A stretch of 36,902 bases of DNA from a virus: positions 1-36,902 of the IMG/VR virus record IMGVR_UViG_3300035204_000692. The stretch is one strand, 5' to 3'. The position numbers were made by a program, and so were the translations under genes. This document shows, in pieces, positions 13,450-35,342 of this stretch; the first letter of the stretch is position 1; each line of letters starts with the position of its first letter. The notes beneath the pieces are model-generated. The model was not told where the DNA came from. It searched no databases and saw only the letters and a list, made by a program, of their open reading frames with translations.

Positions 13450-13478
13450 ATTTTACCCTACTGATGCTGTTTGGTCAA
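13450..13478 (-). promoter_or_regulatory. Sigma70-like promoter for DNA polymerase, possibly leaderless
   Basis: TTGACC (plus 13473-13478) and TAAAAT (plus 13450-13455) are 17 bases apart on the minus strand. The -10 ends exactly six bases before the gp43 ATG at 13443, so transcription should begin at or next to the A of the AUG. The -10 covers the TAA stop of the upstream glycosyltransferase gene. Confidence 0.6.
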
Positions 13479-14876: not shown

Positions 14877-15870
14877 TTTCTGTTTTCCAATAATCATAAA
14901 TGCCTTTGTTTACTTCATAATCAAACATGATTCGGTTTCGCATTGGTTGAACCTTTGCCCAATCCCACATTTTCTGTAACCCTTCGTGTAAAGGCGTTTT
15001 GTGTTCGAACCCTAATATATCACAAGACTTTTGGTGCGTAGACCATGCATGTTTTACTTCATGTCTACCCTCAAGGTATTGCATCTCGGCGTTGCCAGGC
15101 AAAATTTCAATCAATGTGTTTGCCGCTTCGGTGATAGACACTTCTTCAATACCACCGATATTAATAATTTGTTTGGATGATTTTGGAGAAATTGCGGCAT
15201 TCCAAAATGGTTCTAGTACATCATCAATATAACTAAATGCTCTAGTTTGTGTTCCGTCACCAAAAATTGTGATGGGGTCTGCCTTTAAATACTGATACAT
15301 CCAAATACCCAAAACATTTCTATACTTGTCCCAAATATTTTGCTTCACACCATACACATTGTGTGGTCGAAGAATACACCAATCAAGACCGTGTTGTTCA
15401 CCTGCAATTTCAATATCCATCTCACAAGCGGCCTTTGCAACTCCATATGGGTCAATAGGTTTTCGTGGCATCGATTCGTCAAAGGGTGTATCATTGTTAC
15501 CATAAACTGCCATGCTTGATGTAAAGACCAATCTTTTGACATCATAATTAATACATTTATTAACAATATTTGCCGTGGAAATTAAATTATTGGTATAATT
15601 ATATTTTCGAATGAAGGGACTTAATCCTTCGGCCGCATATGCGGCAAAGTGATAAACATAATCGGGTCTATACTTTTCAAACACATATTCAAGTTCATGC
15701 TCTGAAGTCGCTAAATCAAATTGGAAAAACTTTACTCTTCGGTCAATGTTGTTTTTGTAACCACCACTGAGGTCATCGATACCCAAAATTTCGGCCTCGG
15801 TATTCTCAAGCAACCAATCTGCTAATCGTGACCCCAAAAGGCCACCAACTCCCGTAATTAAAATTTTCAT
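14845..15870 (-). CDS. NAD-dependent sugar epimerase/dehydratase (extended SDR)
   Basis: 341 residues from MKILITG at 15870, preceded by AAGGAG and overlapping the gmd stop as ATGA. The Rossmann motif GVGGLLGSRLADWLL is at the N-terminus, FTSSMAVYG gives the catalytic Ser, and YGVAKAACEMD the Tyr-xxx-Lys pair. LRPHNVYG and FGDGTQTRAFSYIDD are typical of UDP-glucose 4-epimerase-like enzymes acting on nucleotide sugars. The exact reaction cannot be fixed; placement beside gmd and fcl allows a role in GDP- or UDP-sugar conversion. Confidence 0.85.
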   Translation of the reverse strand: MKILITGVGGLLGSRLADWLLENTEAEILGIDDLSGGYKNNIDRRVKFFQFDLATSEHELEYVFEKYRPDYVYHFAAYAAEGLSPFIRKYNYTNNLISTANIVNKCINYDVKRLVFTSSMAVYGNNDTPFDESMPRKPIDPYGVAKAACEMDIEIAGEQHGLDWCILRPHNVYGVKQNIWDKYRNVLGIWMYQYLKADPITIFGDGTQTRAFSYIDDVLEPFWNAAISPKSSKQIINIGGIEEVSITEAANTLIEILPGNAEMQYLEGRHEVKHAWSTHQKSCDILGFEHKTPLHEGLQKMWDWAKVQPMRNRIMFDYEVNKGIYDYWKTENENSNINISK

Positions 15871-16838
15871 AGTACTCCTTTCCAATGGTCAACCATTTCG
15901 TGCATCATACTTTCAAATGTATATTCGGGTTTCCAACCAAGAACCTTTCGGATTTTACTGGAATCTCCCCGAAGGAATTTTAATTCTTCAGGACGCATAT
16001 ACTTTGGATTTTGTGTGACATAATCTCTATAATCTAATTCTAGATATTTAAATACAACTTCACACAAATCCCGTACCGAATGTGTTGTGCCGGTTGCGAC
16101 ACAAAACTCATCTGGTGTTTCATGATTGATAATTTGAATCATTGCTCTGGTATAATCTTTGGAGTGGCCCCAATCACGGTAAGAATCCATGTTGCCCAAT
16201 TCTAACTTATCACGCAATCCCTTTTTAATTTCGACTGCTTGCTTAACAACCTTATTGGTTACAAAATTAGAACCCCTTCTTGGTGATTCGTGATTAAAAA
16301 GAATACCATTACACGCATGTAAATTATATGCGTTTCTGTAGTGTCGGACTAAATTGTATGCTAGGAGTTTTGCACATCCATATGGACTAACTGGATTCAT
16401 TGCTGTGCTTTCTCTTTGAAATCCATCATCATCTATAGTATTACCAAACATTTCAGAAGAACTTGCTTGATAGAATTTTGCTTCGGGTGTAAATTGTCTG
16501 TAAATTTCAAGTAAGTTTAGAACACCAAGACCATTTGTTTGAATAGTATATGATGGTACATCAAAACTAATTCTTACATGACTCATGGCGCCCAAGTTGA
16601 AAATGTGTGATGGGTTTACAGAAGTGACAATTTTTGTTAATGATGGCACATCAGTGAGGTCACCATAATATGTGTTCACATCACTCAAATGTTCTAATCT
16701 TGTTTCTTGATTTTCAGCAGTGGATTGTCTTCGTACAATTCCATGTACTTCATATCCCATGTCGAGCAGATGTTCAGAAAGATAACTTCCATCTTGCCCG
16801 GCAATACCACTAATTAATGCAACTTTTCGCTCACTCAT
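15867..16838 (-). CDS. gmd: GDP-mannose 4,6-dehydratase
   Basis: 323 residues. It converts GDP-D-mannose to GDP-4-keto-6-deoxymannose, the first step to GDP-L-fucose. Family blocks are in order: ALISGIAGQDGSYLSEHLL (NADP binding), GIVRRQST, NLGAMSHVRISFDVP, ASSSEMFGNT, SPYGCAKLLAYNLVRHYR (catalytic Tyr-xxx-Lys), GILFNHESPRRGSNFVTNKV, and GNMDSYRDWGHSKDYTRAM. Length is slightly below bacterial Gmd (about 370). It overlaps fcl upstream and the epimerase downstream by ATGA, so the pathway enzymes are co-translated. Confidence 0.96.
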   Translation of the reverse strand: MSERKVALISGIAGQDGSYLSEHLLDMGYEVHGIVRRQSTAENQETRLEHLSDVNTYYGDLTDVPSLTKIVTSVNPSHIFNLGAMSHVRISFDVPSYTIQTNGLGVLNLLEIYRQFTPEAKFYQASSSEMFGNTIDDDGFQRESTAMNPVSPYGCAKLLAYNLVRHYRNAYNLHACNGILFNHESPRRGSNFVTNKVVKQAVEIKKGLRDKLELGNMDSYRDWGHSKDYTRAMIQIINHETPDEFCVATGTTHSVRDLCEVVFKYLELDYRDYVTQNPKYMRPEELKFLRGDSSKIRKVLGWKPEYTFESMMHEMVDHWKGVL

Positions 16839-17734
16839 TTTCTAGAATCCTCATAATTTTCACAAAACCATTTAATTGTTTGTTCCAACCCAGTTTCAAT
16901 AGGAACAAATTCATAATCAGGCAATAATCTTTTTAACAAACTACTATCAGAAGGTTTTCTCAATTGACCTTCACGCTTACCATTATATATGATGTTTCCA
17001 TCAAACTTCATTCGCCATGCAATTTCTTGTGCAATGGTGGCAATAGAAATTTCTTTATCGGGGGCAATAACAAATGGTTCTGGTTCATCATAATTATTCA
17101 AAATCCATTTAGAAATGTTGGCAACATCTTGAGAGTATATAAATTCCCTGTATGCTTTTCCCTGCCCCCATATCTCAAAGTCAGTATTATTCTTTTTTGC
17201 CAAATAACATTTATGAATAAGAGATGGAATAACATGGCCATCTTCTAAACTAAAATTATCGTGGGGGCCATAAATGTTACATGGAATAACTGTAACAAAA
17301 TTACATCCATATTGTTCTCTGTATGCTCTGCTTTGAACCTCTATCATTCGCTTTGCATAAGCATAAGCATAGTTGGTGATATGTGGTTCTCCTTTGTGAA
17401 TTTGGTCAGGATGTAGGGGATAGGAAACATCGTCTGGAAAAACACAGGTACTCATAAACGAAACAACTTTATCTACATTACAAATTCTTGCCGCTTCTAA
17501 AACATTTGAATTTAAAATGATATTATCATAAAAGAATTCGCCCGGCTTTGTTGTATTTGCTTTAATCCCGCCGACTTTGCCGGCGCAATGAATGATAGAA
17601 TCGATTTCATGTGTGGTGATGTAGCGAATGATATCATCAATCTGCATTAAGTTTACATGTTTTCGTGATGGTTTAAAATCTGATTCAATTGCTGAACCAA
17701 CCAAACCCTTTCCACCTGTAATGAGTGTTCTCAT
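16835..17734 (-). CDS. fcl: GDP-L-fucose synthase
   Basis: 299 residues; ATGA overlaps at both ends and GGAGG before the start. It carries out the epimerase-reductase step from GDP-4-keto-6-deoxymannose to GDP-L-fucose. LITGGKGLVGSAI binds NADPH; CAGKVGGIKANTTKPGEF, FMSTCVFPDDVSYPL and NYAYAYAKRMIEVQ (Tyr-xxx-Lys) are diagnostic of the WcaG/Fcl family, as is PCNIYGPHDNF. Together with gmd it completes synthesis of GDP-fucose from the host GDP-mannose pool, feeding the two GT10-like transferases of the island. Confidence 0.94.
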   Translation of the reverse strand: MRTLITGGKGLVGSAIESDFKPSRKHVNLMQIDDIIRYITTHEIDSIIHCAGKVGGIKANTTKPGEFFYDNIILNSNVLEAARICNVDKVVSFMSTCVFPDDVSYPLHPDQIHKGEPHITNYAYAYAKRMIEVQSRAYREQYGCNFVTVIPCNIYGPHDNFSLEDGHVIPSLIHKCYLAKKNNTDFEIWGQGKAYREFIYSQDVANISKWILNNYDEPEPFVIAPDKEISIATIAQEIAWRMKFDGNIIYNGKREGQLRKPSDSSLLKRLLPDYEFVPIETGLEQTIKWFCENYEDSRK

Positions 17735-18321
17735 TTAAATACCTCCATATTTCGTAGGTCTGGCCAATCTTCTAATACCCAATCACGGGGAGATGTTTTC
17801 ATGGCTTCTGGTAATTTATTTAATCCAAGTTCTGCTGTTTCAGGAGTCATGTAGTAATGATATCCGACCGTATTAATATTTTGTGTTCTCCAAGGAATAT
17901 TTGGTTCTCGGCCATCATAAGACATCTTTTTTAATTCTTTGGCGGCGTCCTCATTATCAGTAAGAATCATTCCACCCCTACCAAGACTAAGATGCTTTTG
18001 AAACTGAAAACTCAAACACATAAAACTATTGTTGATATAACTATTCTTTTCCCACAATACAGCGGCATCAATGATGTTTGTGTTTCCTAAAACATAACAG
18101 TTTTTCCAGTTTTCATCTCTCCATTCCCAATTCAAATTTAATTTCATAGCAAGAAAAGGAACAGAGATATATGTTCGGGCAGGAATTGTGATATCATTTG
18201 CATTTGTATATCGCAAACAAAGTTCTAAACCATGAGTGCAACAATCTACAGCAACACCATAAGGCGCACCAAAGAAATCTGCTACTACATTTTCAAATTG
18301 TTTGACGGAATCAAAATTCAT
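17731..18321 (-). CDS. Truncated DegT/DnrJ/EryC1-type sugar aminotransferase
   Basis: 196 residues, about half the usual length (about 370). The PLP-binding large domain is recognisable: FGAPYGVAVDCCTHGLELCL, IIDAAVLW (Asp85, contacts the PLP ring nitrogen), LSFQFQKHLSLGRGGMILTD (Lys109, the Schiff-base lysine) and GYHYYMTPETAELGLNKLPE. The C-terminal small domain is absent, and ATGA overlaps at both ends show that the stop is part of the operon design. Full-length relatives aminate keto sugars such as the Gmd product (giving GDP-perosamine). Whether this short form is active is uncertain. Confidence 0.75.
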   Translation of the reverse strand: MNFDSVKQFENVVADFFGAPYGVAVDCCTHGLELCLRYTNANDITIPARTYISVPFLAMKLNLNWEWRDENWKNCYVLGNTNIIDAAVLWEKNSYINNSFMCLSFQFQKHLSLGRGGMILTDNEDAAKELKKMSYDGREPNIPWRTQNINTVGYHYYMTPETAELGLNKLPEAMKTSPRDWVLEDWPDLRNMEVFK

Positions 18322-18857
18322 TTGGTCGCCTCAACATTTAAACTAATTAGTGTTCCGTTGTCTTTGTCCATGTGTGGAATATATGCCTGAGAGTGGTCAT
18401 CAAAATCAGAATGTTCCGTTTCTCTCCAATCATATTTTTTAACATCTTCGAAACCACAATCGGTCAATACTTCTGAAAGTTCCCAGAAGTCATAAACTGT
18501 TTTGTGATAGATTACTTTATCACCCATTTGCATCTTGCCATAGAGCGGCCCAAGAACATCTACCAAATCAATTTCACACATAAAGTACAACTCCGCCATA
18601 CTGGTGAAATCTGGAACAGCAATACGCAATGTTCCATTTGGTTTAAGTACTCGATGCCATTGTTCAAGAAGAACAATAATTTCTTCTCTATCAAAGTACT
18701 CAATCATGTGAGATGAATAAATCAAATCGACACTATCGTCTGAGTAATCTTTCAGAAAGATATCACTGTGGTCTAGATGAGAATAATCACCACCATCAAT
18801 GTGTGTCCACCCTTCACCAAAATTTCTCCAACCACAACCGATATTTAATTTAATCAT
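18318..18857 (-). CDS. SAM-dependent methyltransferase (type 11)
   Basis: 179 residues. LNIGCGWRNFGEGWTHIDGG is the SAM-binding motif I, DDSVDLIYSSHMIEYFDREE corresponds to motifs II and post-II, and VLKPNGTLRIAVPDF to motif III. Class I methyltransferases of this compact type within sugar clusters methylate sugars or sugar intermediates. It overlaps the GT10-like gene by eight bases and the aminotransferase gene by ATGA. A substrate cannot be named; O- or N-methylation of the glycan made by this island is the natural inference. Confidence 0.85.
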   Translation of the reverse strand: MIKLNIGCGWRNFGEGWTHIDGGDYSHLDHSDIFLKDYSDDSVDLIYSSHMIEYFDREEIIVLLEQWHRVLKPNGTLRIAVPDFTSMAELYFMCEIDLVDVLGPLYGKMQMGDKVIYHKTVYDFWELSEVLTDCGFEDVKKYDWRETEHSDFDDHSQAYIPHMDKDNGTLISLNVEATK

Positions 18858-19728
18858 TGGACGCCTCTATTATAGTTTCGATTTCGGCCCAAATATTATA
18901 CTTGTCCAATATTAAATCTCTTGCTTTTGACATGGCTAAAATGTTTTCCTCTGTCGGTGGTGTTTTGATTATATCAATAACCTGTTCGATAGATTTAAAA
19001 TCATCTATATCTTTTATGTGGTGGTAACTACCTTCGGGAAGATACTCAGACACATTAGGACATCCCCAATAAATAGGCATCGTCCATGAGAGCAGAGCAT
19101 CAATTGGTTTTTCACTCACACAGTTATAGCAACTGGAATTTTCAAAAGCAATTGAATAGTGGTATGGATATAACCCTTCATACTTACAATAACTATTATA
19201 CTCTAATTTTCCTTTAAAGCAAGAGGCAATGTTCCCATAATTTTCTATACCATATGCTCCAAATATATCAATATCTTTGGTGTGTTCTACTAAGTTTATT
19301 AAGAAATTTACTCTTTTTCTATGTCCGCTTATATCAATTTTTCCACTGGTAATAGAACTGACCATGTGTTTTTTATCATCTCGATTGTATTTTAGATTCT
19401 TTAAGAAATCGTATGATTTAAGAACTCTCCAAGTAGGCACGAAATGATACTTTCTGTCTGTGTATGTTCCTTGAAAAAACAAATCGTCTGGCCAATTTAA
19501 TTTTGGGGGTTTAATTTCTGGTTCTTCTCTTTGAAGATATATCACCTTATTCAAAGGAACATTATTTGGTACTCCACCATCAAGAACTACATGATAATCT
19601 GCCTCAGATATATTGGTTGTTGCTTGTATATTATTCCACACTCCCTTTTCTTGTGGGGTGTGAATTTTATATGTGTTTAGCAAATCACTGGAACTTCCCC
19701 AATCACAATGAAACATTATTTTAGCCAT
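18850..19728 (-). CDS. GT10-like (alpha-1,3-fucosyltransferase type) glycosyltransferase
   Basis: 292 residues from MAKIMFHCDWG at 19728, preceded by AAGGAA and overlapping the cupin stop by eight bases. The C-terminal half has the GT10 signature: YHYSIAFENSSCYNCVSEKP, then LLSWTMPIYWGCPNVSEYLP, corresponding to the FENS…TEK…PVYWG block that binds GDP-fucose. FFQGTYTDRKYHFVPTW and IDIFGAYGIENYG fit the preceding Rossmann domain. With gmd and fcl nearby, GDP-L-fucose is the likely donor. The acceptor (host lipopolysaccharide, a virion glycan or another glycan) is unknown. Confidence 0.85.
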   Translation of the reverse strand: MAKIMFHCDWGSSSDLLNTYKIHTPQEKGVWNNIQATTNISEADYHVVLDGGVPNNVPLNKVIYLQREEPEIKPPKLNWPDDLFFQGTYTDRKYHFVPTWRVLKSYDFLKNLKYNRDDKKHMVSSITSGKIDISGHRKRVNFLINLVEHTKDIDIFGAYGIENYGNIASCFKGKLEYNSYCKYEGLYPYHYSIAFENSSCYNCVSEKPIDALLSWTMPIYWGCPNVSEYLPEGSYHHIKDIDDFKSIEQVIDIIKTPPTEENILAMSKARDLILDKYNIWAEIETIIEASND

Positions 19729-20128
19729 CAATAAATTCCTTGTCTGCTTCGGGCCCAAAATAAGGTCCATTTTTAAATTCGTAAACTATAGTATCATCTT
19801 TGATACAAGAATATTTGTGGCCACCGGCAAAGGTAATTGTACAATCACCCTCATTTAAAATTTCCGTTCCCATAAATTTGGCATCTTCATCATAGTAATC
19901 AACCTGAACAGAACCACGCATAATAACCCATGTTTCTTGTGTCATGTCGGTGTGCCTCTCACATTTAATGTGCTTGTGGTTGCGAAACGATTTACCGGCA
20001 TCCATTTTCATTAAAGCACCCTGAAGATATTTGTCTTCAGAGGTGAAATCAAAACGGGCACCATCTAAATCATCTAATCTATAGATGCAATGTAGCACAT
20101 CACCATTTATATTTGAATATTCTTTCAC
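19721..20128 (-). CDS. Cupin-fold protein
   Basis: 135 residues with a GTG start that overlaps the preceding stop as GTGA; AGGAAG lies upstream. NHKHIKCERHTDMTQETWVI supplies His and Glu residues typical of cupin motif 1, then RGSVQVDYYDEDAKF and LNEGDCTITFAGGHKYS match the second half of the beta-barrel. Small cupins in sugar clusters are often ketoisomerases or sugar epimerases. A metal-binding dioxygenase-type or regulatory role is possible. No catalytic assignment can be made. Confidence 0.72.
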   Translation of the reverse strand: MKEYSNINGDVLHCIYRLDDLDGARFDFTSEDKYLQGALMKMDAGKSFRNHKHIKCERHTDMTQETWVIMRGSVQVDYYDEDAKFMGTEILNEGDCTITFAGGHKYSCIKDDTIVYEFKNGPYFGPEADKEFIDG

Positions 20129-21381
20129 AATATACTTCCTACTAATTCAACATCTTTAATGTCTTTTGGTTCGTTTCTTTTTTCTTTAAGTTCACGAACG
20201 ATACCCAAAGAAGCAACCTTTACACCGTCATGCCAAAAATGGTTTTTTGGATTATAAAGAATGTCGTGTCTTGTTTTTGTATATTTTTCAATCTCATTGT
20301 TATGACTGTGGACATCTTCGTGTCCTGAAATCTCTCCCCAATCGTGAAGATAATCTAAATCTTGTCCTTCACGAAGACCGTATAAGGATAATACAGAACT
20401 TGCAGTAATACAATATTTTTCTGGATTCAAATTGTTAACCTTAATAAAGTTCTTGTAATATTCAAATTGACTTTGAAATTTTGTATAGTGTATAAAGTTT
20501 GCTTTGTTGGCATGATGAATACTATTATCATTGAAGTATGTTCTTGCGATTTGAATAGTTTCTTCATGGGTATCATTAATGTGACACGAATGTTTTCCGC
20601 AACCAAAAATACTTCTAATCTCTTCTTTTAAGGATACAGGATCCGTCGTGGAATTTGGTTTGATTAGAACGGCTATCATTGGAGCATCGTTCGTATAACA
20701 AAGTTCCGCCTTTCTAGCGAACCCTGCAAAGTTTTGTTGCCAACCTAATCCCCATTCTTCCCCCAAATAAAGTTGTCTCACAAAATTCAAGGCGCCGTTT
20801 CGTGACCACGGAATATTTTTTACATAAACAATAGAACTGTGTTTATTTAATATTTCAAATGTTTCATCAAGTTTTTCGTGTTGATGAACTGCTGATGGGA
20901 AAAGGGTTACAATCAGAGAATCCTTATCCAACACTGCATATTCTGAGGCCATTGCATCCATATAAAATGAATCCAATCCTAGTTCTTTAAAATAATCGCT
21001 CGAACAATTAAGTTGTCCCTCGGAAGCAGATTGTGCAATGTGATATTCCACATCTCTGTTGTATAGTATTCCTGCCGCAACTCTATGGGCCCCATTTAGT
21101 AACAACATGTTCGATGTTACAGGAACAGTACCGTAGTAACTGTTGAATCCATTTTTTGATATAGAATCTAAAATGTTATCAAATGTAGTCTTGAAACTTT
21201 CATATGTTTTTTTATTGGGATTATCTAATTCATCAAAACCATTCCACACTCGCAAATGTTCTTTATATACATCTTCACCAAATGATGTGTCATAACCATT
21301 CTCTCGATATTTGGCGTAAATATATTTTGCGGGTATATCAAAACGATTGTTGTTTAATAATTCAATAGATTTTATTTTCAT
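20125..21381 (-). CDS. Two-part protein: ParB-like N-terminus and possible nucleotidyltransferase-like C-terminus
   Basis: 418 residues. Near residue 93, NMLLLNGAHRVAAGILYNRD resembles the GxHR core of ParB/sulfiredoxin-fold domains, which bind or hydrolyse nucleotides. The C-terminal 110 residues (ASSVLSLYGLREGQDLDYLH; HNPK-like YNPKNHFWHDGVKVASLGIV; KEKRNEPKDIKDVELV) resemble a nucleotidyltransferase-like module found with glycan genes in bacteria and viruses; this is from memory and tentative. The central 200 residues are unassigned. It lies between a GT2 enzyme and the cupin, with 4-base overlaps on both sides. A role in activating or attaching a sugar is inferred. Confidence 0.6.
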   Translation of the reverse strand: MKIKSIELLNNNRFDIPAKYIYAKYRENGYDTSFGEDVYKEHLRVWNGFDELDNPNKKTYESFKTTFDNILDSISKNGFNSYYGTVPVTSNMLLLNGAHRVAAGILYNRDVEYHIAQSASEGQLNCSSDYFKELGLDSFYMDAMASEYAVLDKDSLIVTLFPSAVHQHEKLDETFEILNKHSSIVYVKNIPWSRNGALNFVRQLYLGEEWGLGWQQNFAGFARKAELCYTNDAPMIAVLIKPNSTTDPVSLKEEIRSIFGCGKHSCHINDTHEETIQIARTYFNDNSIHHANKANFIHYTKFQSQFEYYKNFIKVNNLNPEKYCITASSVLSLYGLREGQDLDYLHDWGEISGHEDVHSHNNEIEKYTKTRHDILYNPKNHFWHDGVKVASLGIVRELKEKRNEPKDIKDVELVGSIL

Positions 21382-22109
21382 AGTGTTTCCAATCGTTGAT
21401 ATGGTGGTTGTTTTCGCAAAGCGGCCTCAATTCGCAATTGTTCATGGGGTACTTTTACCCAATCAGAATATTCGTTTGCTTCGTTGTAAACATACATTCC
21501 ATCGGGTATATATTTGAATCTTTCGCCTGACATTTCTAACATTGGCCACATAAAGGTCAAATCACCGGCCGCTTTATACCACTCTCCATCTGTATCAATA
21601 AAATCTTTGGGGTCGATTTTTAAAATCAATTCTCTTCTAAATGTTCTAAGGTGTGTGGCACGCCATTCGTCTTGCCGAAATTTATTTTGTTTTACTATAT
21701 CATCAGGATATCTTCCTTGACCGACCACCCGACCATGTGATGTGTGATACTTGGACCCATAAGTCATCCAAGTATTTTCATCGTAATATTCATCCAGTTT
21801 TTCTAATACCCAATGATTTGGTAGCCAATCATCAAAATCTAAGGTCACAATAATTGAACCTTCTTTGGCCATTTGTGAACCTTCATACACATTTTGTGTT
21901 TGGTATTTTCTAGTTTCGTTTCGAACTACAGTTAGATTATCATATTCTTTTTCTTGTTCTAACAGATATTCATAAGTACCATCTGTGGTTTGGGCATCAA
22001 TAGCAATAACATCAAAATTATCGTGGTATTGGTTGGCCGCAGACAATACTGAATTTTCAATCCACTGTCTGGAATTATATCCCATCATTAAAATTGTGTA
22101 ATGATTCAT
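21378..22109 (-). CDS. GT2 family glycosyltransferase
   Basis: 243 residues from MNHYTILMMGYNSRQWIENS at 22109, chosen because GGGAG lies upstream and it overlaps the epimerase stop as ATGA. NFDVIAIDAQTTDGTYEYL and GSIIVTLDFDDWLPNHWVLE (DxD motif near residue 95) define the GT-A fold of family 2, and RTFRRELILKID follows. No membrane segment is present, so it is a soluble transferase using a nucleotide sugar. It is probably one of the chain-building enzymes of the island. Confidence 0.88.
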   Translation of the reverse strand: MNHYTILMMGYNSRQWIENSVLSAANQYHDNFDVIAIDAQTTDGTYEYLLEQEKEYDNLTVVRNETRKYQTQNVYEGSQMAKEGSIIVTLDFDDWLPNHWVLEKLDEYYDENTWMTYGSKYHTSHGRVVGQGRYPDDIVKQNKFRQDEWRATHLRTFRRELILKIDPKDFIDTDGEWYKAAGDLTFMWPMLEMSGERFKYIPDGMYVYNEANEYSDWVKVPHEQLRIEAALRKQPPYQRLETL

Positions 22110-23011
22110 GCCTTTACTCCCATTGAATCTTCCAATTTGATTGTTGATTCCCAACCCAAAAGGTCTTTTGCTTTTGTACAATCGGCAAGAGTTTCCCTTG
22201 CTTCACCATCTCTAGGTGGAAGATGAACATATTCAGCATCCTTTCCACCAATCATTTTTATTAAATCGTGAATGTTATGATTAGTTTCTGAACCGATATT
22301 AAATGTTTCACCGATTACTTGGTCACCTGCAAGCATTGCTTTAATGTTTGCATCTACGACATCCAAAACATTGACATAATCTCGCCGTTGCATACCATCA
22401 CCAACAATAGTCATGGGTTCACCGGCGGCAACTTGTCTTTGGAAAATGCCCATGACAGGTGCATATTGTCCTCTTCTTGGTTGTCTATTTCCATACACAT
22501 TAAAATATCTAAATATAACAGTTTCTAATCCAAACAAATCTGTGAACATTTTACACAGGTCTTCTCCAGAAACTTTAGTTACTGAATATGGATTTAAACA
22601 ATCAGTGGGCATCGTTTCTTTGTTTGGTATTTCATTTTCTAAACCATATGCCGCCGAGGTTGAAGAATATATCACACGGCGAACATCATGTTTTCTTGCC
22701 GCTTGCAATACATTACAAGTTCCTAAAACATTTGTTTTGGTTGCCAATATTGGGTCTTCGATTGTGTTCATAATCCGTGCTTCTGCCGCTAGATGAAAAA
22801 CACAATCAACATCTTTGAACAAAGGTTCAATCCTATTAAAATCGGCAACATCATAATCCCAATATTCAGCAGAATCATTATAGAAAAATGATTCGTGTGC
22901 ATCGGAAGATTCGTTGTCAATGACAATAACATGATGACCTTGTTCTACCAAAGCATCTACAATATTCGAACCAATGAACCCTGCGCCGCCTGTTACTATT
23001 ATTCGTTTCAT
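22106..23011 (-). CDS. UDP-sugar 4-epimerase-like extended SDR
   Basis: 301 residues. The NAD motif is VTGGAGFIGSNIVDAL; VFHLAAEARI, YSSTSAAYG (catalytic Ser), NPYSVTKVSGEDLC (Tyr-xxx-Lys) and FRYFNVYGNRQPRRGQYAPV are typical of UDP-GlcNAc/UDP-glucose 4-epimerases of the WbpP/GalE group. IVGDGMQRRDYVNVLDVVDA and FNIGSETNHNIHDL complete the family pattern. It is the second epimerase of the island and differs clearly from the one at 14845. It could act on the product of the UDP-sugar dehydrogenase encoded just upstream, for example UDP-glucuronate to UDP-galacturonate. Confidence 0.88.
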   Translation of the reverse strand: MKRIIVTGGAGFIGSNIVDALVEQGHHVIVIDNESSDAHESFFYNDSAEYWDYDVADFNRIEPLFKDVDCVFHLAAEARIMNTIEDPILATKTNVLGTCNVLQAARKHDVRRVIYSSTSAAYGLENEIPNKETMPTDCLNPYSVTKVSGEDLCKMFTDLFGLETVIFRYFNVYGNRQPRRGQYAPVMGIFQRQVAAGEPMTIVGDGMQRRDYVNVLDVVDANIKAMLAGDQVIGETFNIGSETNHNIHDLIKMIGGKDAEYVHLPPRDGEARETLADCTKAKDLLGWESTIKLEDSMGVKA

Positions 23012-23757
23012 GGTGTGGCCAATCCTAATACTTGATGTATTTCCTTATGATGGTCAGAGTGTGGTCGTAATGAATGGCAGTCAATATAAAATCCCGCTTG
23101 TATAAGTTGAGGATGCCATTTCCAATCGGCTCTATCGATTCTTCTATTAATCGTTTGTGTTTTCTGTACTACCCTACCACCCTCTTCTTTGAATTCCATA
23201 ATTTTTTTAGATGAAAATACCTCATCTACATTCCATTTGGTTAAAGCGGGCCCGTTCCAACCTTCAGGAGTATGTACTTGATTTTCATCAACTTCATCAA
23301 TAACTTTATTTACATACGAATGAAAACTATCTCCATCGATACCCAAAACTTTATCAAACATTTTACCCAAGGCCAAATGATAACAAATTGGAAAGTAGTC
23401 GCCTTCCGAATTTAAATTTGTCCAATCTGGTTGTGTTGCTGTCCAATTCATTACCACCTCATTCCAATAACTTCGAGACATTGGAAACATATCAATATCA
23501 CTAGTAATCCAAAGCGTATCGGGTTCTTGTGTAGGATACCATAGTCTGGCCAACTGTGCTTGTGTATGGACTGGCAAATTTTTGTCTATTGGGATATGAT
23601 GAACTTCACCATATTTTTTACTGATATCAATGTTTGGGTCACCAACATGAATCAATACAGGTGTAATATCAATAACCTTCTTCCATGTTTTTGAAACATC
23701 ATTCCAAAAATCTAGATAATAAGGATTATCATCACATGACATAATAACTTTAATCAT
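23008..23757 (-). CDS. Putative GT-A type glycosyltransferase
   Basis: 249 residues from MIKVIMSCDDNPYYLDFWND at 23757; it overlaps the dehydrogenase stop by eight bases and the epimerase start by ATGA. DTLWITSDIDMFPMSRSYWN near residue 90 looks like the DxD donor-sugar site of nucleotide-sugar transferases. YFPICYHLALGKMFDKVLG and the C-terminal GFYIDCHSLRPHSDHH are also distinctive. No close family comes to mind; marine phage genomes carry similar proteins in sugar clusters. Assignment rests on the DxD region and context. Confidence 0.6.
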   Translation of the reverse strand: MIKVIMSCDDNPYYLDFWNDVSKTWKKVIDITPVLIHVGDPNIDISKKYGEVHHIPIDKNLPVHTQAQLARLWYPTQEPDTLWITSDIDMFPMSRSYWNEVVMNWTATQPDWTNLNSEGDYFPICYHLALGKMFDKVLGIDGDSFHSYVNKVIDEVDENQVHTPEGWNGPALTKWNVDEVFSSKKIMEFKEEGGRVVQKTQTINRRIDRADWKWHPQLIQAGFYIDCHSLRPHSDHHKEIHQVLGLATP

Positions 23758-24592
23758 TTGACACCGCCGAGGATTTGTCTGCCCAATCCCAATCTTTCCT
23801 AATAATTTTATTTTGTTCCCATACCACATTTAGAAGTCGTGGTTCGATACCATTTTCTATCATTGTTTCCATTAATGCATTAACATCTTTTGGAAAGCAT
23901 GTGCCACCAAAACCATAATCACCATCTGGGCCCGGCACATCCGTGTGAGATTTGCCAATTCGTGGGTCTGCAAGAACACCAATCAACAGAGTATCCCAAT
24001 CAATGTTTGGGTTTTCATCGACAAGCAAACGAATTTGATTGAAGAACATTACCTTAGTTGCCAAGAAACAGTTTGAAGTATATTTAACCAATTCCGATTC
24101 GTCAGATGTCATTTCATACACCGGCATGTCTAGGAAATTGTTTCTAAACAAATCGGCAACCATGTTGGTATAACATTGTTGTCCTTCAGGGCCTCCAATA
24201 ACCGTTCGGTCAGCATTTACAAAATCTTGATTAGCATTGGCCGCCGTTAAAAACTCAGGACAATGAACAAGATTTGGTAGTGCATATTGTTCAGACAATA
24301 TTTTGGTTGTTCCCACAGGAACTGTTGATTTCAAAATAAGAACTTGGTCTTTGTTAAAAGTAACACTTGAAATAAAATTTGTAATCGCAGAAATGTTTGC
24401 TCGTCCGCCTTCTGCATTATACATTGGGGTAGGTAAACATATAAACACATATTTACACTCCATTACTTCTTCTAATGTGTTGGGGGATTTTTCGGGAGAT
24501 ATATCATATACCAAAGGGTCGAGGTCCTTAAAACCATATGCAACCGCACCACCCACAAATCCATTACCAATAATTCCAATTTGATTATTCAT
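23750..24592 (-). CDS. Short UDP-glucose/GDP-mannose dehydrogenase-like protein
   Basis: 280 residues, versus 390-450 for typical enzymes. The NAD domain begins IGIIGNGFVGGAVAYGF. CKYVFICLPTPM, ILKSTVPVGTT, HCPEFLTAANANQDF (with the catalytic Glu) and GFGGTCFPKDVNAL (catalytic Cys near residue 234) are all kept, as is KYTSNCFLATKVMFFNQI. The C-terminal nucleotide-binding domain is absent. Full-length homologues oxidise UDP-glucose or GDP-mannose to the uronate; the short form may bind its substrate differently or act in a dimer. It overlaps the Nmad1 gene by one base (TAATG) with an AAGGAA site. Confidence 0.82.
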   Translation of the reverse strand: MNNQIGIIGNGFVGGAVAYGFKDLDPLVYDISPEKSPNTLEEVMECKYVFICLPTPMYNAEGGRANISAITNFISSVTFNKDQVLILKSTVPVGTTKILSEQYALPNLVHCPEFLTAANANQDFVNADRTVIGGPEGQQCYTNMVADLFRNNFLDMPVYEMTSDESELVKYTSNCFLATKVMFFNQIRLLVDENPNIDWDTLLIGVLADPRIGKSHTDVPGPDGDYGFGGTCFPKDVNALMETMIENGIEPRLLNVVWEQNKIIRKDWDWADKSSAVSND

Positions 24593-24909
24593 TATGTTTC
24601 CTTAGAATTCACATACCCACTGAACAAAATCATGTAATTAATAATATCTAGTACGGCATCTTCAAACCCCTCATTGTTAACCTTTAATTCACCGGCGTCT
24701 ACAAAAGTAGATAATCGAGAAACTTTATCAATAACACGCACAAGGAATCCACACTCGGTCGAACACACACCCATTGCCTCGCATCGTTCAAAGTTAGCAA
24801 ATGGTTTCTCACCACCTTGTCCTGCATAATCGTGGTTCTTTTGTTTCATTATATTCAATGCGGTCTTGCACAAAACGGCATGATGTTTTAGTAATTGTTC
24901 TCTGTTCAT
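24592..24909 (-). CDS. Nmad1 / DUF1599 protein (nucleotide modification-associated)
   Basis: 105 residues. KNHDYAGQGGEKPFANFERC, CGFLVRVIDKVSRLSTFVD and EDAVLDIINYMILFSG match the DUF1599 pattern, whose helical fold and acidic residues recall MazG-type nucleotide pyrophosphohydrolases. The family has been described as associated with nucleotide modification. It follows the dUTPase gene with GGGAG before its ATG. The two nucleotide genes interrupt the sugar island, suggesting pool sanitising or a modified-base pathway. Confidence 0.75.
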   Translation of the reverse strand: MNREQLLKHHAVLCKTALNIMKQKNHDYAGQGGEKPFANFERCEAMGVCSTECGFLVRVIDKVSRLSTFVDAGELKVNNEGFEDAVLDIINYMILFSGYVNSKET

Positions 24910-24911
24910 TA

Positions 24912-25469
24912 TTATACTCCCGTACTTCCAAATCCACCAATACGCTCAGTAGTCTGTCCCGGCTGTTCTGTAACTTCTTCAAGAACATTAGGAACACTTT
25001 CAATTAATTCACCTTGTGCAAGTCTATCGCCATGATATATACGAATTTCGTCTGCACTTCCATTGTATAGCATTACAAATGTTTCGTGGTAGTAATCGGA
25101 ATCTATAATACCAACACCATTAGGAATAATTAAACCCTTCTTTAAAGAAACACTTGAGCGAGGATGAATACGAACAGAATGACCTACTGGAATTTTAAAA
25201 ATTAATCCAGTAGGAATACATGCTCGTTCGCCGGGAGCGAGGTCAATACCGACACCAAATGTTCGGGTAGAACCTTTAGGCATTGCCCAACATTTACACA
25301 ATCGTTCCTCTAATTTATTATCCATTGTGTATACTTTTACTTTAACTTCATCATTCTGATAAAGTGTTTCTTTAAAATATGCTTTAATGTCAAAACAGGC
25401 CGAACCCGCAGTGGCATATACAGGGTCAAACCCATCTTCGTGGAGTTTGTAATAACCTAATTTTTTCAT
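24912..25469 (-). CDS. dut: Deoxyuridine triphosphatase (dUTPase)
   Basis: 185 residues with all five trimeric dUTPase motifs: AGSACFDIKAY (1), HPRSSVSLKKGL (2), PNGVGIIDSDYYHE (3), IYHGDRLAQGELI (4) and the C-terminal RIGGFGSTG (5). An insertion of about 30 residues lies between motifs 1 and 2 (around ERLCKCWAMPKG), which makes it longer than common phage forms (about 150). It hydrolyses dUTP to dUMP, keeping uracil out of DNA and supplying ThyX with substrate. It overlaps the GT10-like gene by ATGA. Confidence 0.95.
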   Translation of the reverse strand: MKKLGYYKLHEDGFDPVYATAGSACFDIKAYFKETLYQNDEVKVKVYTMDNKLEERLCKCWAMPKGSTRTFGVGIDLAPGERACIPTGLIFKIPVGHSVRIHPRSSVSLKKGLIIPNGVGIIDSDYYHETFVMLYNGSADEIRIYHGDRLAQGELIESVPNVLEEVTEQPGQTTERIGGFGSTGV

Positions 25470-26323
25470 AATTTACTAAAATAATTATCCCACAGATAAT
25501 CATCGCTTCCTTTCAAATTTTTAACACGGTTTAAGTTATCTTCGATTGCCGGCATCATTTTGTGGTATACATCGGCATTAAGATTGAATATTGATGGTTC
25601 AAAATCTTCTGTTAACATTATCATCCCATCGGTATTAAAATATTTACCAATAGATGGACACCCCCAATAAATAGGAACAGTACCAAGTGCAAGACAATCC
25701 GTTAATTTTTCTGTGAAGTAATGGTCGTATGTTGAATTTTCCATTACCACACTAAACATATAATCTTTTAAACCCTCTGTTTTGTCTGGATGAACCATAG
25801 AATTTTCTGTTCCAAATCTAGGTGTGCCACACGCACCACCCATAACATCAACTCGCCCAGATTCCAACATGCGTTTTGCTTGGTGGTGACGATATGCATG
25901 GCCAGGACACATTTGTTTATGTGATGCAATCATAGAACACAATTTAGTTTTTTTATGGATACCATAATCAGATTCTTTAACCCAAGGCAAAACACTGTTA
26001 GGGAAAACAAATTTAAATCTAGGGTCTAGTTGTAGAAGTTCTTCATCACCTGTGAATATTGCGGCATAGTGAGGCAATATCTCTTTATAATTGGCCCTCA
26101 ACCATCGGTAAACATCTGGTCGTATGTCTCTAGATTCAAATACCCAACCGAATTTTTTATCGTGTTTGGGCGCCTTCATCCCTTCTGAAATTCCCCTATC
26201 AATCCATACTTCAATATCTCCTTCAGACATACTCCAAGAAAACTCTTTCGGTACTCTTGTCGAACACGAAGAATAATCGGGATGGAATAAAAATTCACCC
26301 ATCAATCTCACATTTGGTTTCAT
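25466..26323 (-). CDS. Second GT10-like glycosyltransferase
   Basis: 285 residues. The GT10 signature is clear: YMFSVVMENSTYDHYFTEKL, then LALGTVPIYWGCPSIGKYF. KTKLCSMIASHKQMCPGHAYR and VDVMGGACGTPRFG fit the preceding part of the donor domain. It is only distantly similar to the GT10-like protein at 18850, so a recent duplication is unlikely. It overlaps dut and the next gene by ATGA. The donor is probably GDP-fucose or a related GDP-sugar. Confidence 0.86.
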   Translation of the reverse strand: MKPNVRLMGEFLFHPDYSSCSTRVPKEFSWSMSEGDIEVWIDRGISEGMKAPKHDKKFGWVFESRDIRPDVYRWLRANYKEILPHYAAIFTGDEELLQLDPRFKFVFPNSVLPWVKESDYGIHKKTKLCSMIASHKQMCPGHAYRHHQAKRMLESGRVDVMGGACGTPRFGTENSMVHPDKTEGLKDYMFSVVMENSTYDHYFTEKLTDCLALGTVPIYWGCPSIGKYFNTDGMIMLTEDFEPSIFNLNADVYHKMMPAIEDNLNRVKNLKGSDDYLWDNYFSKL

Positions 26324-27006: not shown

Positions 27007-27411
27007 TTATCCTTTACCGATATGATATTTGGGAATCAATTCCCACTCATCCTTTTCTTTGTATGATAAAATTTTAATTTGACCCATAGAAACTCTGGGT
27101 TCAACCACCACATCGGGGTCAACAATTTCTAATAATCCCCATTCATTTAACAGGGAAACAATAGTGTTTCGCCGGCCGATATCACCAACACTCAAATCAG
27201 TTGATAATCCATCAAGTGAAAATAACTCTTTAAAGTGTACGATATAATACTTTCCTCTTTTGTGGAGGATGTGACATGATTGGTATAATTTATTGGACTT
27301 TTTTGAAGACACCCCTATACGAGTTAGGGTTTCTTTAATTTTCAAAAAATTATCGGGATTTTCAAAGATGACTTCAACTAAATCTTCAATCCCAATTTGG
27401 ACATTTTCCAT
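27007..27411 (-). CDS. regA: RegA translational repressor
   Basis: 134 residues (T4 RegA is 122). FLKIKETLTRIGVSSKKSNK, LYQSCHILHKRGKYYIVHFK and FSLDGLSTDL correspond to the conserved RNA-binding core. RegA binds the start regions of early mRNAs and blocks their translation, including those of clamp-loader genes in T4. The start has an ideal AAGGAG site. As in T4 it lies directly downstream of gp62, but the next gene is the glycan island instead of gp43. Confidence 0.92.
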   Translation of the reverse strand: MENVQIGIEDLVEVIFENPDNFLKIKETLTRIGVSSKKSNKLYQSCHILHKRGKYYIVHFKELFSLDGLSTDLSVGDIGRRNTIVSLLNEWGLLEIVDPDVVVEPRVSMGQIKILSYKEKDEWELIPKYHIGKG

Positions 27412-27428: not shown

Positions 27429-27812
27429 TTAATCATTATATTCACCGCCCAGTTTTTTCTTCAATTCACTCACCTGCTCATGTGTCAAAATATCTAACAC
27501 TTCCAAAGCCTTTTTATTTGAGTACCCATAATATTGTTTGATTGTATCTAAATCCTGGACAGGTTTTTTCTTTAACCATTTACTATATCTCTTTCGAGGT
27601 CTAATACTATGTAGTAAATAATCAAATTGCATCTTTTTATCCAAGTGGCCACGCATATTAATTTCATTGGCCTGAAGGATTGTGTCTGGGAAAAATGATA
27701 ATGTTTTGTTTACAAAAAATGGCACATATCTCTTCTCAACCTGTTCGTCTTCGGTGTCGAGAAGAGACTTCTTTGTGCTGTTGATTGCATTTATGTAATC
27801 GAATAGTTTCAT
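27429..27812 (-). CDS. 62: Clamp loader small subunit, T4 gp62-like
   Basis: 127 residues from MKLFDYINAINSTKKSLLDT at 27812, chosen because it overlaps the membrane transporter stop as ATGA; the longer open frame upstream is antisense to no gene but lies inside the transporter. RYVPFFVNKTLSFFPDTI and the RKRYSKWLKK segment match gp62 of marine T4-like phages, shorter than the 187 residues in T4. It joins four gp44 subunits to load gp45. No Shine-Dalgarno sequence is visible, so translation probably depends on ribosomes finishing the transporter gene. Confidence 0.85.
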   Translation of the reverse strand: MKLFDYINAINSTKKSLLDTEDEQVEKRYVPFFVNKTLSFFPDTILQANEINMRGHLDKKMQFDYLLHSIRPRKRYSKWLKKKPVQDLDTIKQYYGYSNKKALEVLDILTHEQVSELKKKLGGEYND

Positions 27813-28858
27813 ACGAGAGAGTATACCCCGGCCACCAGTAGTAGTGCAACCCAAATTCCCAATGCTTTTGCATATTCTCCCCACGGTGTATTGAAGTACA
27901 TACGACCGATGTGCATACACTTGTGGGTAGGACTTACAAGGTAACCAGAGTACTCAAGTGCGAAGAACCACACGAAGTATTCCAGACCATACACGGATGA
28001 TAGAATCACCACAAGTCCAGAGAACTTACTCGATGAACCAAGACAGAACGCAGAGGTAAATGCCAGAACTGAAATCGCAACGAATCCAACTGTGGTGTTA
28101 ATGTCAAGCACTTGAGAATTCTCAAGGAAGACTTCGATTTCACCGTAGTAACTCTTCGCATAGTTCGATGCGACAATGACAACCGAGAGAGTTGCCACCA
28201 AAGGCCACTTGATGTATGATAGAATATCACCAAGTGCGAAGGTCTGTGACAAACACAGATAGTAAATTGCTAAAGCACTAAACGCCCACTGTGGTTCTAG
28301 ACCGACCCAAGGTGTGATGGAAGCAATACCCAACAGAAGTGGCAATGCACCATAAAACAAACGGGGTTTGTGAATATCAAATCCTGCATCAAGACTAAGT
28401 TGAATGTCCTCTTCTTTGATTCGGAACATGATGTAGTATGTGATATACGCAATCGTTACCGCTAGAAGAGGCCAAAGCATTCCGACAACCGCACCATAGG
28501 TCAGACCCAATGCCGCAATGGGCATGATGATTGTCTTTTCCAGTGGTGACCACAGATAATAGTGGTGAGATGCTAGGTAGTCGATGATACCAAACTTATG
28601 CCGGCATGTACTACACTTCTCCTTCGATGGTGCGAGCGAATCAAGAATACCCGCAGAGGTGGTTACTCTGCCCGGAATGGGCAACACACCACCGAATAGT
28701 GAAACCAACGCAAGCACAAGTCGCTTCGACCTTACCTTGCGAATGAGAATACCAAACACATCATGCAGATAGAAATGGTCACGAACGATTCCACCAATAA
28801 TCATGATAGCAACCAAGTAGAAAATATATTCTTGATTGTTAAATATTAAGTGCATCAT
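27809..28858 (-). CDS. Multi-pass membrane transporter, DUF401 / ion-transporter-superfamily-like
   Basis: 349 residues, mostly hydrophobic, with roughly eight to ten membrane segments. LPIPGRVTTSAG at residues 59-70 and SGYLVSPTHKCMHIG near 310 resemble the two paired signature loops of DUF401 proteins, a predicted transporter family related to the ion-transporter superfamily. A cytosolic CSTCRHK could bind metal. It starts at ATGATG overlapping the gp44 stop and ends overlapping the gp62 start, ATGA at both junctions. GC is high (34 of 60 at 28621-28680, versus 15 of 60 at 17461-17520), pointing to transfer from another genome. The substrate is unknown; a small organic anion or ion is plausible. 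Confidence 0.72.
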   Translation of the reverse strand: MMHLIFNNQEYIFYLVAIMIIGGIVRDHFYLHDVFGILIRKVRSKRLVLALVSLFGGVLPIPGRVTTSAGILDSLAPSKEKCSTCRHKFGIIDYLASHHYYLWSPLEKTIIMPIAALGLTYGAVVGMLWPLLAVTIAYITYYIMFRIKEEDIQLSLDAGFDIHKPRLFYGALPLLLGIASITPWVGLEPQWAFSALAIYYLCLSQTFALGDILSYIKWPLVATLSVVIVASNYAKSYYGEIEVFLENSQVLDINTTVGFVAISVLAFTSAFCLGSSSKFSGLVVILSSVYGLEYFVWFFALEYSGYLVSPTHKCMHIGRMYFNTPWGEYAKALGIWVALLLVAGVYSLV

Positions 28859-29796
28859 TTAAAAGTACACTCCATCATTAGTTCTGTAAGACATGCTGTT
28901 AGGTTAATTTCTTGGTCGGCAACACGGGATGCTTTGTCTTGATAATCAGCAAGAATTAAAATGGCTGCCGGAATTGAAGACGATTCAAACGATTCATATA
29001 ACCCATCATAAATTCTACGAAATATTCTAGTTTGGTCGTTGTCTAAATTATCAACCACCCATTTTCTAACCAATGTGAATTCTTTTTTCTTCATAGAAGA
29101 TACAAGGGTATCTAATTGAATATCACCAAGATTGGATAATATTCCATTGTCAATTATACCTGCAACCGAATATCGTTGAAGTTCATTTATAATCCTACGA
29201 AAATCAGGAAAATGTCGTGCTACTAATTGTGCAACAACTGGTTCTTCATATGTAATATTTTCGTTTACAAGAATGTATTTAATTCTTTCTAACAGTTGTA
29301 CCGCAAGTATTGGTTTTTCTGTATTGGGAATTCTAAACTCAACATTCGTGCATCTAGAATGCAGTGGTTCAATGATTCGATTCTTGAAATTGCAAGTCAA
29401 AATAAACCGACAGTTCTTTGAAAACTCTTCAATAAATCCACGCAATGCGGGTTGTGTTGATTGTGCATTTGAGTAATCAAACTCATCAAGAATGACAACC
29501 TTTTTAGAACCAGAAATCGAAACTGTGCTGGCAAAGTTCCGAATCTTTGTTCGTAAAGTATCAATGTTACCATCTTCTGAACAGTTAATTATGATATAAT
29601 CTGTATTCAATTCGGAGCATAATGCTCTAGCAACTGTGGTCTTTCCACAACCTGCTCCGCCCGATAACAAAAGATTTTGGGCCTCATCGGCCTGTATCAT
29701 ATCATGAAATGTTTTTTTAATAGATGATGGTAAAATACAATTGTCTATAGTTCGTGGGCGATATTTTTCAACCCACAAGTATTCATTATTTGTCAT
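28855..29796 (-). CDS. 44: Clamp loader large subunit, T4 gp44-like (AAA+ ATPase)
   Basis: 313 residues (T4 gp44 is 319). WVEKYRPRTIDNCILP at the N-terminus is the RFC box, LLLSGGAGCGKTTVARAL near residue 42 is Walker A, KKVVILDEFDYSN near 95 is Walker B, and EPLHSRCTNVEFRIP near 140 contains the SRC arginine finger. It loads gp45 onto primer junctions. It starts four bases after the gp45 stop without a clear Shine-Dalgarno site and overlaps the transporter by ATGA. Confidence 0.95.
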   Translation of the reverse strand: MTNNEYLWVEKYRPRTIDNCILPSSIKKTFHDMIQADEAQNLLLSGGAGCGKTTVARALCSELNTDYIIINCSEDGNIDTLRTKIRNFASTVSISGSKKVVILDEFDYSNAQSTQPALRGFIEEFSKNCRFILTCNFKNRIIEPLHSRCTNVEFRIPNTEKPILAVQLLERIKYILVNENITYEEPVVAQLVARHFPDFRRIINELQRYSVAGIIDNGILSNLGDIQLDTLVSSMKKKEFTLVRKWVVDNLDNDQTRIFRRIYDGLYESFESSSIPAAILILADYQDKASRVADQEINLTACLTELMMECTFK

Positions 29797-29800
29797 TTAT

Positions 29801-30496
29801 TCAACCGTTGTACTTAGAGTCTGCTTCCAGTGCAATCCAGTATCGAAGATTTTTTGTTTTATGTTCGAACTGACTCACAACCTTTTCAGTAATATTAACG
29901 GTGTATTCACCCGACATTAGTTTTAGATTTTCCACTTTGAAAAACATTTCAAACTCGGCAGATGAATCGTATGTTACATTTTGAAGTTCGATTGAATATG
30001 AGTTGCTTGATGGGTCTGCTTTATCAATAACAACTGCTTCGATGCCCGTAGCAGAATTACGAATACACAAATCTGGCAACTGAAGTACAGAGGCCGCCTT
30101 GGTCATTTCACTAAACACACTTGGTTTCCAATCAAAACTAATAACTGGTTCCGGCATTTTAATTTGTTTTTTAACTGTGGTTAGAAGAGATGGGTCAGAA
30201 AAATAATACTTAACTGATGCCCCATTTTCTTCAATTATGACATACTTATCAGTAAAATCAAATGTAGGGTTTTTGAAGAGAGAAATAACTCCCAAGAATT
30301 TGTTTAAATCCCACAATCCAAATTCATTGTCAAATGTTTCTGATACAGTTGCTTCTGCCATAACATTCTTTACTGGTGAAATGGTTGTAAGTTTATTTCC
30401 CGCAGAAACTAGAAGGTTAGAATTTATAGAAGCAAAATTCTTAAGTACTTCAAGGGTATCACGGGAAAGGGTTAATTGTGTTGCTGTTGTTGTCAT
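29801..30496 (-). CDS. 45: Sliding clamp, T4 gp45-like
   Basis: 231 residues (T4 gp45 is 228). LSRDTLEVLKNFASINSNLL at the N-terminus and FGLWDLNKFLGVISLFKNPT near residue 78 are conserved in gp45 of T4-like phages. The trimeric ring tethers gp43 and, in T4, also activates late transcription. A strong AAGGAG site precedes the ATG, and a sigma70-like promoter lies at 30528-30556 with a start near 30521. It heads the gp45-gp44-transporter-gp62-regA unit. Confidence 0.94.
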   Translation of the reverse strand: MTTTATQLTLSRDTLEVLKNFASINSNLLVSAGNKLTTISPVKNVMAEATVSETFDNEFGLWDLNKFLGVISLFKNPTFDFTDKYVIIEENGASVKYYFSDPSLLTTVKKQIKMPEPVISFDWKPSVFSEMTKAASVLQLPDLCIRNSATGIEAVVIDKADPSSNSYSIELQNVTYDSSAEFEMFFKVENLKLMSGEYTVNITEKVVSQFEHKTKNLRYWIALEADSKYNG

Positions 30497-34232: not shown

Positions 34233-34260
34233 ATTATACCATAATCACATATAGTGTCAA
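34233..34260 (-). promoter_or_regulatory. Consensus sigma70 promoter upstream of the 33090 gene
   Basis: Both boxes are perfect: TTGACA (plus 34255-34260) and TATAAT (plus 34233-34238), spacing 16. The -35 overlaps the glnA stop codon. The -10 ends six bases before the ATG at 34226, so the mRNA would be leaderless for that start or have a leader of about 24 bases for the start at 34202. Confidence 0.75.
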
Positions 34261-35342
34261 GCAGTAACAGCCTTTGCTTTAGATTTGGATTTTCGGGTCT
34301 TTTCAATGGCCACTAAACTATTTGTTAATGAAAATAATACACTGTATGGGTCGCAATTAGCGGCCGGCCGCCGGTCTTCCATGTAAAAATTGTCCCCCTT
34401 AATAACACTAGAAGGAATTCGGACAGATGCCCCTCTATCACCAATACCACTTTTGAATTTATTAATGTGACAAGTTTCATGGTCGCCCGTTAGTCTTCTT
34501 TCATTACCAACACCACACACCGAAATGTGTTCGTTGTGGTCTTTTTCTAATTGGTCTACAATCAGTTTAACTTCGTCTTCACTATATCCATTATCTCGCA
34601 TACATTTTGTGCTGAAATTGATATGACATCCCGAACCATTCCAATCTCCTGCAATTGGTTTGGGGTCGTATGAAATAATCACATTAAAATATTCGCTCAA
34701 CCGTTCCATAATATATCGAGCAATCCAGAGTTCATCGGCCAAATCTGTTGCACTCAAAACCCCCAATTGATATTCCCACTGAGACAACATCACTTCGGCA
34801 TTTGTTCCTTCGATATGTAAATTGGCCTTGTGACACATTCCAGTATGCTTTTCAACAAAATTTCTCCCCTGAACAAAATTTCCAGAACCACAATAATATC
34901 TTCCTTGGGGTTGTGGGAAAACTACTTGGTTTTCCTTCATCGGCCATCCCAATGGACGAATGCTTCGATTATCGAGGATAACATATTCTTGTTCTGCACT
35001 AAAAAGAATATCATTCTTTTTTAATTTTTGAAGTTTTGCTCTGGTATTGCTTGGGTGTGGTTTTCCATTAGGAAGCATAACCTCACACAATACAATGAAC
35101 GAGTCCCACCCATCATTTTCGTCATTCATAGGATTGTTTACCATGTAAACAGGTTTAAGCACAAGGTCGCTATCATCGCCTGGTGCTTGCTGTGTGCTTG
35201 ACCCATCAAATCCCCACTCAGGAATTTGCTTTGCGGTGGTTGGAAGTTTATCAACTTCCACAATTCTAATTTTGCTTCGTAAGTTTTGGACAGGGGTGTA
35301 TCCGTCTAACCAAACATAATCAACTCTAATTTTCTGTGACAT
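34257..35342 (-). CDS. glnII: Type II (eukaryote-like) glutamine synthetase
   Basis: 361 residues, a normal length for GSII. It joins ammonia and glutamate using ATP. The family blocks are all present: PEWGFDGSSTQQAPGDDSDL (41-60), SAEQEYVILD with the metal-binding Glu (115-124), PQPQGRYYCGSG (144-154), NAEVMLSQWEYQLG (181-194), DPKPIAGDWNGSGCHINFST (226-245), GNERRLTGDHET (279-290), RGASVRIP (303-310) and EDRRPAANCDPYS (322-334). Catalytic residues appear intact, so activity is expected. It starts nine bases after the methyltransferase stop with AAGGA. A phage copy would draw host nitrogen into glutamine for nucleotide and amino-sugar synthesis (inference). Confidence 0.95.
   Translation of the reverse strand: MSQKIRVDYVWLDGYTPVQNLRSKIRIVEVDKLPTTAKQIPEWGFDGSSTQQAPGDDSDLVLKPVYMVNNPMNDENDGWDSFIVLCEVMLPNGKPHPSNTRAKLQKLKKNDILFSAEQEYVILDNRSIRPLGWPMKENQVVFPQPQGRYYCGSGNFVQGRNFVEKHTGMCHKANLHIEGTNAEVMLSQWEYQLGVLSATDLADELWIARYIMERLSEYFNVIISYDPKPIAGDWNGSGCHINFSTKCMRDNGYSEDEVKLIVDQLEKDHNEHISVCGVGNERRLTGDHETCHINKFKSGIGDRGASVRIPSSVIKGDNFYMEDRRPAANCDPYSVLFSLTNSLVAIEKTRKSKSKAKAVTA

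Follow-up and report, generated by a model that had tools for sequence, protein, structure and literature searches.

Organization of the clamp-loader region

The window analyzed here spans all 36,902 bases of a virus record and carries a T4-like replication gene cluster on the minus strand. Pfam and PHROGs name the sliding clamp (gp45), both clamp-loader subunits (gp44 and gp62) and the translational repressor regA, and leave unnamed the 349-amino-acid open reading frame that lies between genes 44 and 62, its one PHROGs match (phrog_14035) being a family without an assigned function. These flank identities, together with the open reading frame itself, bear out the earlier note's description of a multi-pass protein gene between the two clamp-loader genes, and the exact ATGA that it described at each transporter junction is present in the sequence (Table 1). 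The GC content of the transporter gene is 0.446 versus 0.34-0.35 for its neighbors, and its dN/dS of ~0.09-0.11 indicates purifying selection.

Table 1. Coordinates of the features at the clamp-loader locus of the window
Feature	Position	Strand	Evidence
Gene 45, sliding clamp	29801..30496	-	gp45-slide_C 5.3e-13; phrog_223 1.2e-70
Gene 44, clamp-loader large subunit	28855..29796	-	Pfam AAA + Gp44_lid 7.5e-15; phrog_168 1.6e-119
Transporter, DUF401-like ion-transporter-superfamily membrane protein (349 aa, ATG start)	27809..28858	-	phrog_14035 1.3e-77; TIGR00529 7.3e-8 (sub-cut-off); AlphaFold pLDDT 83
Gene 62, clamp-loader small subunit	27429..27812	-	Phage_clamp_A 2.9e-14; phrog_225 3.2e-43
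regA translational repressor	27007..27411	-	Translat_reg 2.9e-41
ATGA overlap, gp44 stop / transporter start	28855..28858	-	sequence
ATGA overlap, transporter stop (TGA) / gp62 start (ATG)	27809..27812	-	sequence
Exchanged block, edges approximate	27770..28826	-	~96% identity to L002, flanks ~76%

The 3' end of gene 44 (the MMEC codons) holds a GGAG 11 nt ahead of the overlapping transporter start. A GGGG run lies 13 nt upstream of the gp62 ATG in the window, and a GGAG occupies this place in L003, one of two related viral loci (L002 and L003) described below. Because its spacing is long, the Shine-Dalgarno-like run before gp62 is weak, yet it is present, and the duplex energy of the gp62 start with the anti-Shine-Dalgarno sequence is -5.2 kcal/mol, compared with a median of -3.8 for the starts of the window. 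The statement that gp62 lacks a ribosome binding site of its own was thus too strong, and the GGGG run suggests that gp62 may start translation partly on its own. A search upstream of gp62 for a promoter or a T4-late-promoter signal found none exceeding those of shuffled sequences.

Elsewhere in the window, the protein encoded at 2384-3589 matches the phosphate-selective porin O/P (PF07396, 2.9e-8), and the one at 34257-35342, near the replication cluster, is glutamine-synthetase-like (PF00120, 2.9e-15; PF03951, 2.8e-11).

Family and predicted fold of the transporter

Pfam gives no match for the window protein itself, which does not reach the curated score of PF04165, and its match to TIGR00529 (AF0261) scores 32 bits, below the equivalog cut-off of 378. 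Four of its relatives (L034, L036, L155 and L182) exceed the Pfam DUF401 cut-off. The window protein is therefore DUF401-like through its relatives and its structure and not as a scored member of the family.

An AlphaFold model built with 15 sequences from the window and viral contigs had a pTM of 0.83; residues 58-69 were modelled less reliably, at low confidence. Its top viral structural match was the "DUF401 family protein" of Ralstonia phage RP12 (TM 0.89), and this match, the fold and the relatives above the Pfam cut-off together uphold the proposed kinship with DUF401 and the ion transporters. The top solved structures found by Foldseek were the TRAP transporter SiaQM (SiaM), ArsB and VcINDY, with a probability of 1.00, although the TM-scores were only ~0.6, the rmsd ~6 A and the identity 11-14%. 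A sequence search against solved structures gave no significant match, and hhalign, run on a shallow alignment, detected no internal repeat between the protein halves. The model has the characteristic fold of the ion-transporter superfamily. Like SiaQM, ArsB and VcINDY it is helical overall, with segments that are broken and hairpin-like, and it differs from these solved proteins in its low identity and TM-score. With the DUF401/TIGR00529 proteins (PF04165), RP12 included, the likeness extends to both fold and full-length alignment; the differences are the absence of the first ~60 profile positions from the window protein and a genomic place confined to its own clade.

The invariant residues include R64, H98, H99, E107, K108, H312 and K313, and an anionic substrate would fit these conserved charges. 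We infer that during infection the protein moves a small solute, probably an anion, and would aid the phage through nutrient supply. The gene neighbors of the transporter in other phages, which include Hsp20-like, GMP-reductase-like, peptidase-like and tail-fibre genes, were judged partly by eye and offered no constant partner that names a substrate. The literature yielded no biochemical data on phage DUF401 proteins.

Phage genes are frequently repurposed, and the protein might instead be a membrane effector built on a transporter fold, acting for example in superinfection exclusion or lysis timing. The matching phage members align to the DUF401 profile from about position 60 onward, and the loss of this N-terminal part, which could alter transport activity, would suit such an effector; the sole cellular relative found is of equal length (348 aa). 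Conservation over the whole length, the invariant Arg, Lys, His and Glu residues and the ion-transporter-type fold are better suited to transport, however, and we consider an effector unlikely.

Recurrence of the 44-transporter-62 order

A scan of viral contigs found 32 loci with relatives of the transporter. Two of these, L002 and L003, have the order 44-transporter-62-regA with identical overlaps, and they provide the recurrence in other contigs by which the earlier note proposed that the arrangement be checked. A second, alignment-based scan found no further 44-transporter-62 among the best 80 of 503 encoding stretches. In the other phages examined, among them the annotated cyanophages S-H25, metaG-MbCM1 and S-CAM4, the transporter gene has a different location, and a plasmid collection contained no match to it. 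The window, L002 and L003 group in a single clade of the gp44 tree (support 100/98), on which the transporter label needs one change, and only in this clade was the transporter seen between 44 and 62. Because L002 and L003 repeat the gene order and the two overlaps, and dN/dS is ~0.1, the arrangement is not due to chance.

The 44|62 junction as a site for extra genes

We sampled the junction in 80 loci found with the gp44 query, which were then dereplicated. A gap of at least 150 bp separated 44 from 62 in 47 of the 57 dereplicated marine contigs having both genes, and these 47 have a gene in it. Because loci were chosen for their resemblance to the window gp44, this rate applies to these relatives and not to all T4-like phages. 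The same gap was found at 1 of 54 junctions between 62 and regA and at 13 of 61 between 45 and 44. An ATGA (or GTGA/TTGA) formed the 5' junction in 47 of 48 occupied sites and a stop/start overlap the 3' junction in all 48, although these are not independent events, since most come from related contigs; for the 3' overlap, in-frame starts were sought near the gp62 match and most distances were also measured directly. In relatives with no cargo (L087, L093 and L096), 44 and 62 overlap directly, the overlap reading ATGA/GTGA or TAATG.

The cargo belongs to several families: Cpn10 (GroES-like), SET, FkbM and other methyltransferases, DruA-like proteins, a 2OG oxygenase and a short single-pass protein. 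The GroES-like co-chaperonin is the commonest occupant, and at least 18 changes in all are required to place the cargo labels on the gp44 tree. The clade of the window falls inside a large branch whose usual cargo is GroES; no relocated GroES gene was found in the window, which is an incomplete genome. The junction between 44 and 62 is thus a recurrent docking site for differing extra genes in marine T4-like phages. In the window gp44 and gp62 on either side of the transporter are intact, both overlaps are present, and in relatives this position is empty or filled by different cargo. The arrangement is real and is an instance of this recurrent insertion site, not a unique rearrangement. The products of genes 44 and 62 form a single essential complex, and the pair is a textbook example of translational coupling; marine relatives nevertheless repeatedly interpose unrelated cargo between them with the overlaps kept. 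The site is a natural experiment on how far coupled translation tolerates intervening genes, as well as a predictable spot to seek auxiliary genes in uncultured phages.

The GroES-like cargo (L044:4939-5241 and 33 other ORFs) is strongly diverged from contig to contig. Two ORFs between the clamp-loader genes (L076:5404-6555 and L062:3534-4640) weakly match Druantia DruA.

Annotated genes between 44 and 62 are found in Pelagibacter phages Mosig and HTVC008M, Methylophilales phage Melnitz-3 and Synechococcus phages SynMITS9220M01, S-8S53 and S-SSM5. Phage P-SSM2 has denV, dam and others directly upstream of gp62, in a stretch that stops short of gp44, while 44 and 62 are adjacent in Escherichia phage JS10, Dickeya phage LIMEstone1 and Vibrio phage K493. 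The earlier note knew of the arrangement in no described phage. For a gene between 44 and 62 as such this does not hold, given the annotated isolates, and the novelty applies to the transporter cargo alone. The Kyanoviridae isolates of this type (S-SSM5 with denV and dam, HTVC008M and Mosig with a 2OG-Fe(II) oxygenase, and SynMITS9220M01, Melnitz and S-8S53) resemble the window in having extra genes at this place, the first of which overlaps the gp44 stop by 4 nt. They differ in lacking the transporter, in that several have more than one gene, and in that gp62 is not in every case overlapped by the gene before it. The free-standing homing endonucleases of T4, such as mobE overlapping nrdA, are likewise start/stop-overlapping insertions into an essential operon, but the cargo of the window is no endonuclease and most cargoes here are chaperone-, modification- or metabolism-like. 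The open-access literature searched contained no paper on the 44|62 site or on a phage DUF401 protein. The transporter is a new cargo at a site that has apparently not been reported before, and it highlights a widespread, uncharacterised phage transporter family.

Proposed translation through the insertion

Taken as a whole, the account that we think probable is that a secondary transporter of the DUF401 branch sits as accessory cargo at the recurrent 44|62 site. Cargo is inserted seamlessly, its start overlapping the gp44 stop and its stop overlapping the gp62 start. The clamp-loader genes of T4 are translationally coupled (review PMC2988022). With the start/stop overlaps at the cargo, ribosomes ending gp44 would be able to re-initiate on the cargo and then, we infer, feed gp62. 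On the simplest reading, the weak Shine-Dalgarno-like runs would assist these successive terminations and re-initiations, and the essential operon could thereby withstand cargo being often gained, lost or swapped. The site used for GroES-like cargo in most relatives contains the transporter instead in the lineage of the window, and the window's copy was replaced in a later step through homologous exchange with a related phage.

The membrane protein could also be tied to the replisome, its placement setting the gp62:gp44 ratio or tethering clamp-loader synthesis to the membrane. Such a tie would agree with the overlaps kept on both sides, with purifying selection on the transporter and with the coupling known from T4, but relatives hold unrelated cargo or none at 44|62, and in nearly all other phages the transporter family lies away from these genes. 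Since the cargoes vary and the transporter usually sits elsewhere, no specific partnership between transporter and clamp loader is conserved, and we regard the tie as improbable. The dependence of clamp-loader stoichiometry on the transporter, which the earlier note put forward, is possible but is weakened by the turnover of cargo among relatives. There is also a slim chance that the junction serves as a translational relay slot, in which the identity or length of the cargo would tune the amount of gp62 per gp44 and, here, replisome assembly would be linked to transporter synthesis; if so, phages would adjust clamp-loader assembly by exchanging cargo.

Origin of the transporter allele

The identity between the window and L002 changes sharply at both edges of the block given in Table 1. 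Compared with L003 the pattern is reversed, the transporter being 70% and gp44 and gp62 93% identical. Transporter dS is 0.14 to L002 and 2.27 to L003, while gp44 dS is 1.75 to L002 and 0.28 to L003, and the first transporter codons in the window resemble those of L003. This mosaic, together with the L003-like first codons, suggests that an L003-like phage already having 44-transporter-62 took up an L002-like allele. Judged by these sequence comparisons, the window's copy of the transporter is the product of homologous exchange with a related phage of higher GC and identical gene order.

The exchange also bears on the step in GC content, from which the earlier note had suggested acquisition from elsewhere. 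The higher GC of the gene stood, but the foreign acquisition did not, as the allele matches L002 at the same site, and L002, the source-like allele, is GC-richer in its own genes too, which explains the step. A cellular origin deduced from GC was rejected for the same reason, the block being ~96% identical to phage L002 at the same place, in agreement with dS. Direct acquisition from a bacterial host, flagged by a GC of 0.446 versus 0.34 around it and by a 49%-identical relative in one small bacterial MAG, is very improbable: the phage gene at the same place in L002 has GC-richer neighbors, the same query found relatives in 503 viral stretches versus the one MAG, and 192 genomes sampled from the phylum of that MAG contained no other copy. 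An assembly chimera that placed the transporter in the clamp-loader operon would account for the sharp breaks in identity at both block edges, but is dismissed as extremely improbable because L002 and L003, with different metagenome identifiers, share the order and the intact overlaps at 70-96% nucleotide identity.

The bacterial relative (L200:2995-4041, in a MAG of ~1 Mb) adjoins genes that, as judged by eye, are MFS-like and radical-SAM-like.

In L002 (2154-4057) and L003 (2145-4048), genes 45 and 44 have two further genes between them, one GDP-fucose-synthase-like and the other GDP-mannose-dehydratase-like. Relatives of these two genes in the window (70% and 63%) are located at 17731-15891, within a big glycan cluster (13453-26323) that contains epimerases, a GDP-mannose dehydratase, a UDP-glucose dehydrogenase and glycosyltransferases, and also two family-10 fucosyltransferase-like proteins.
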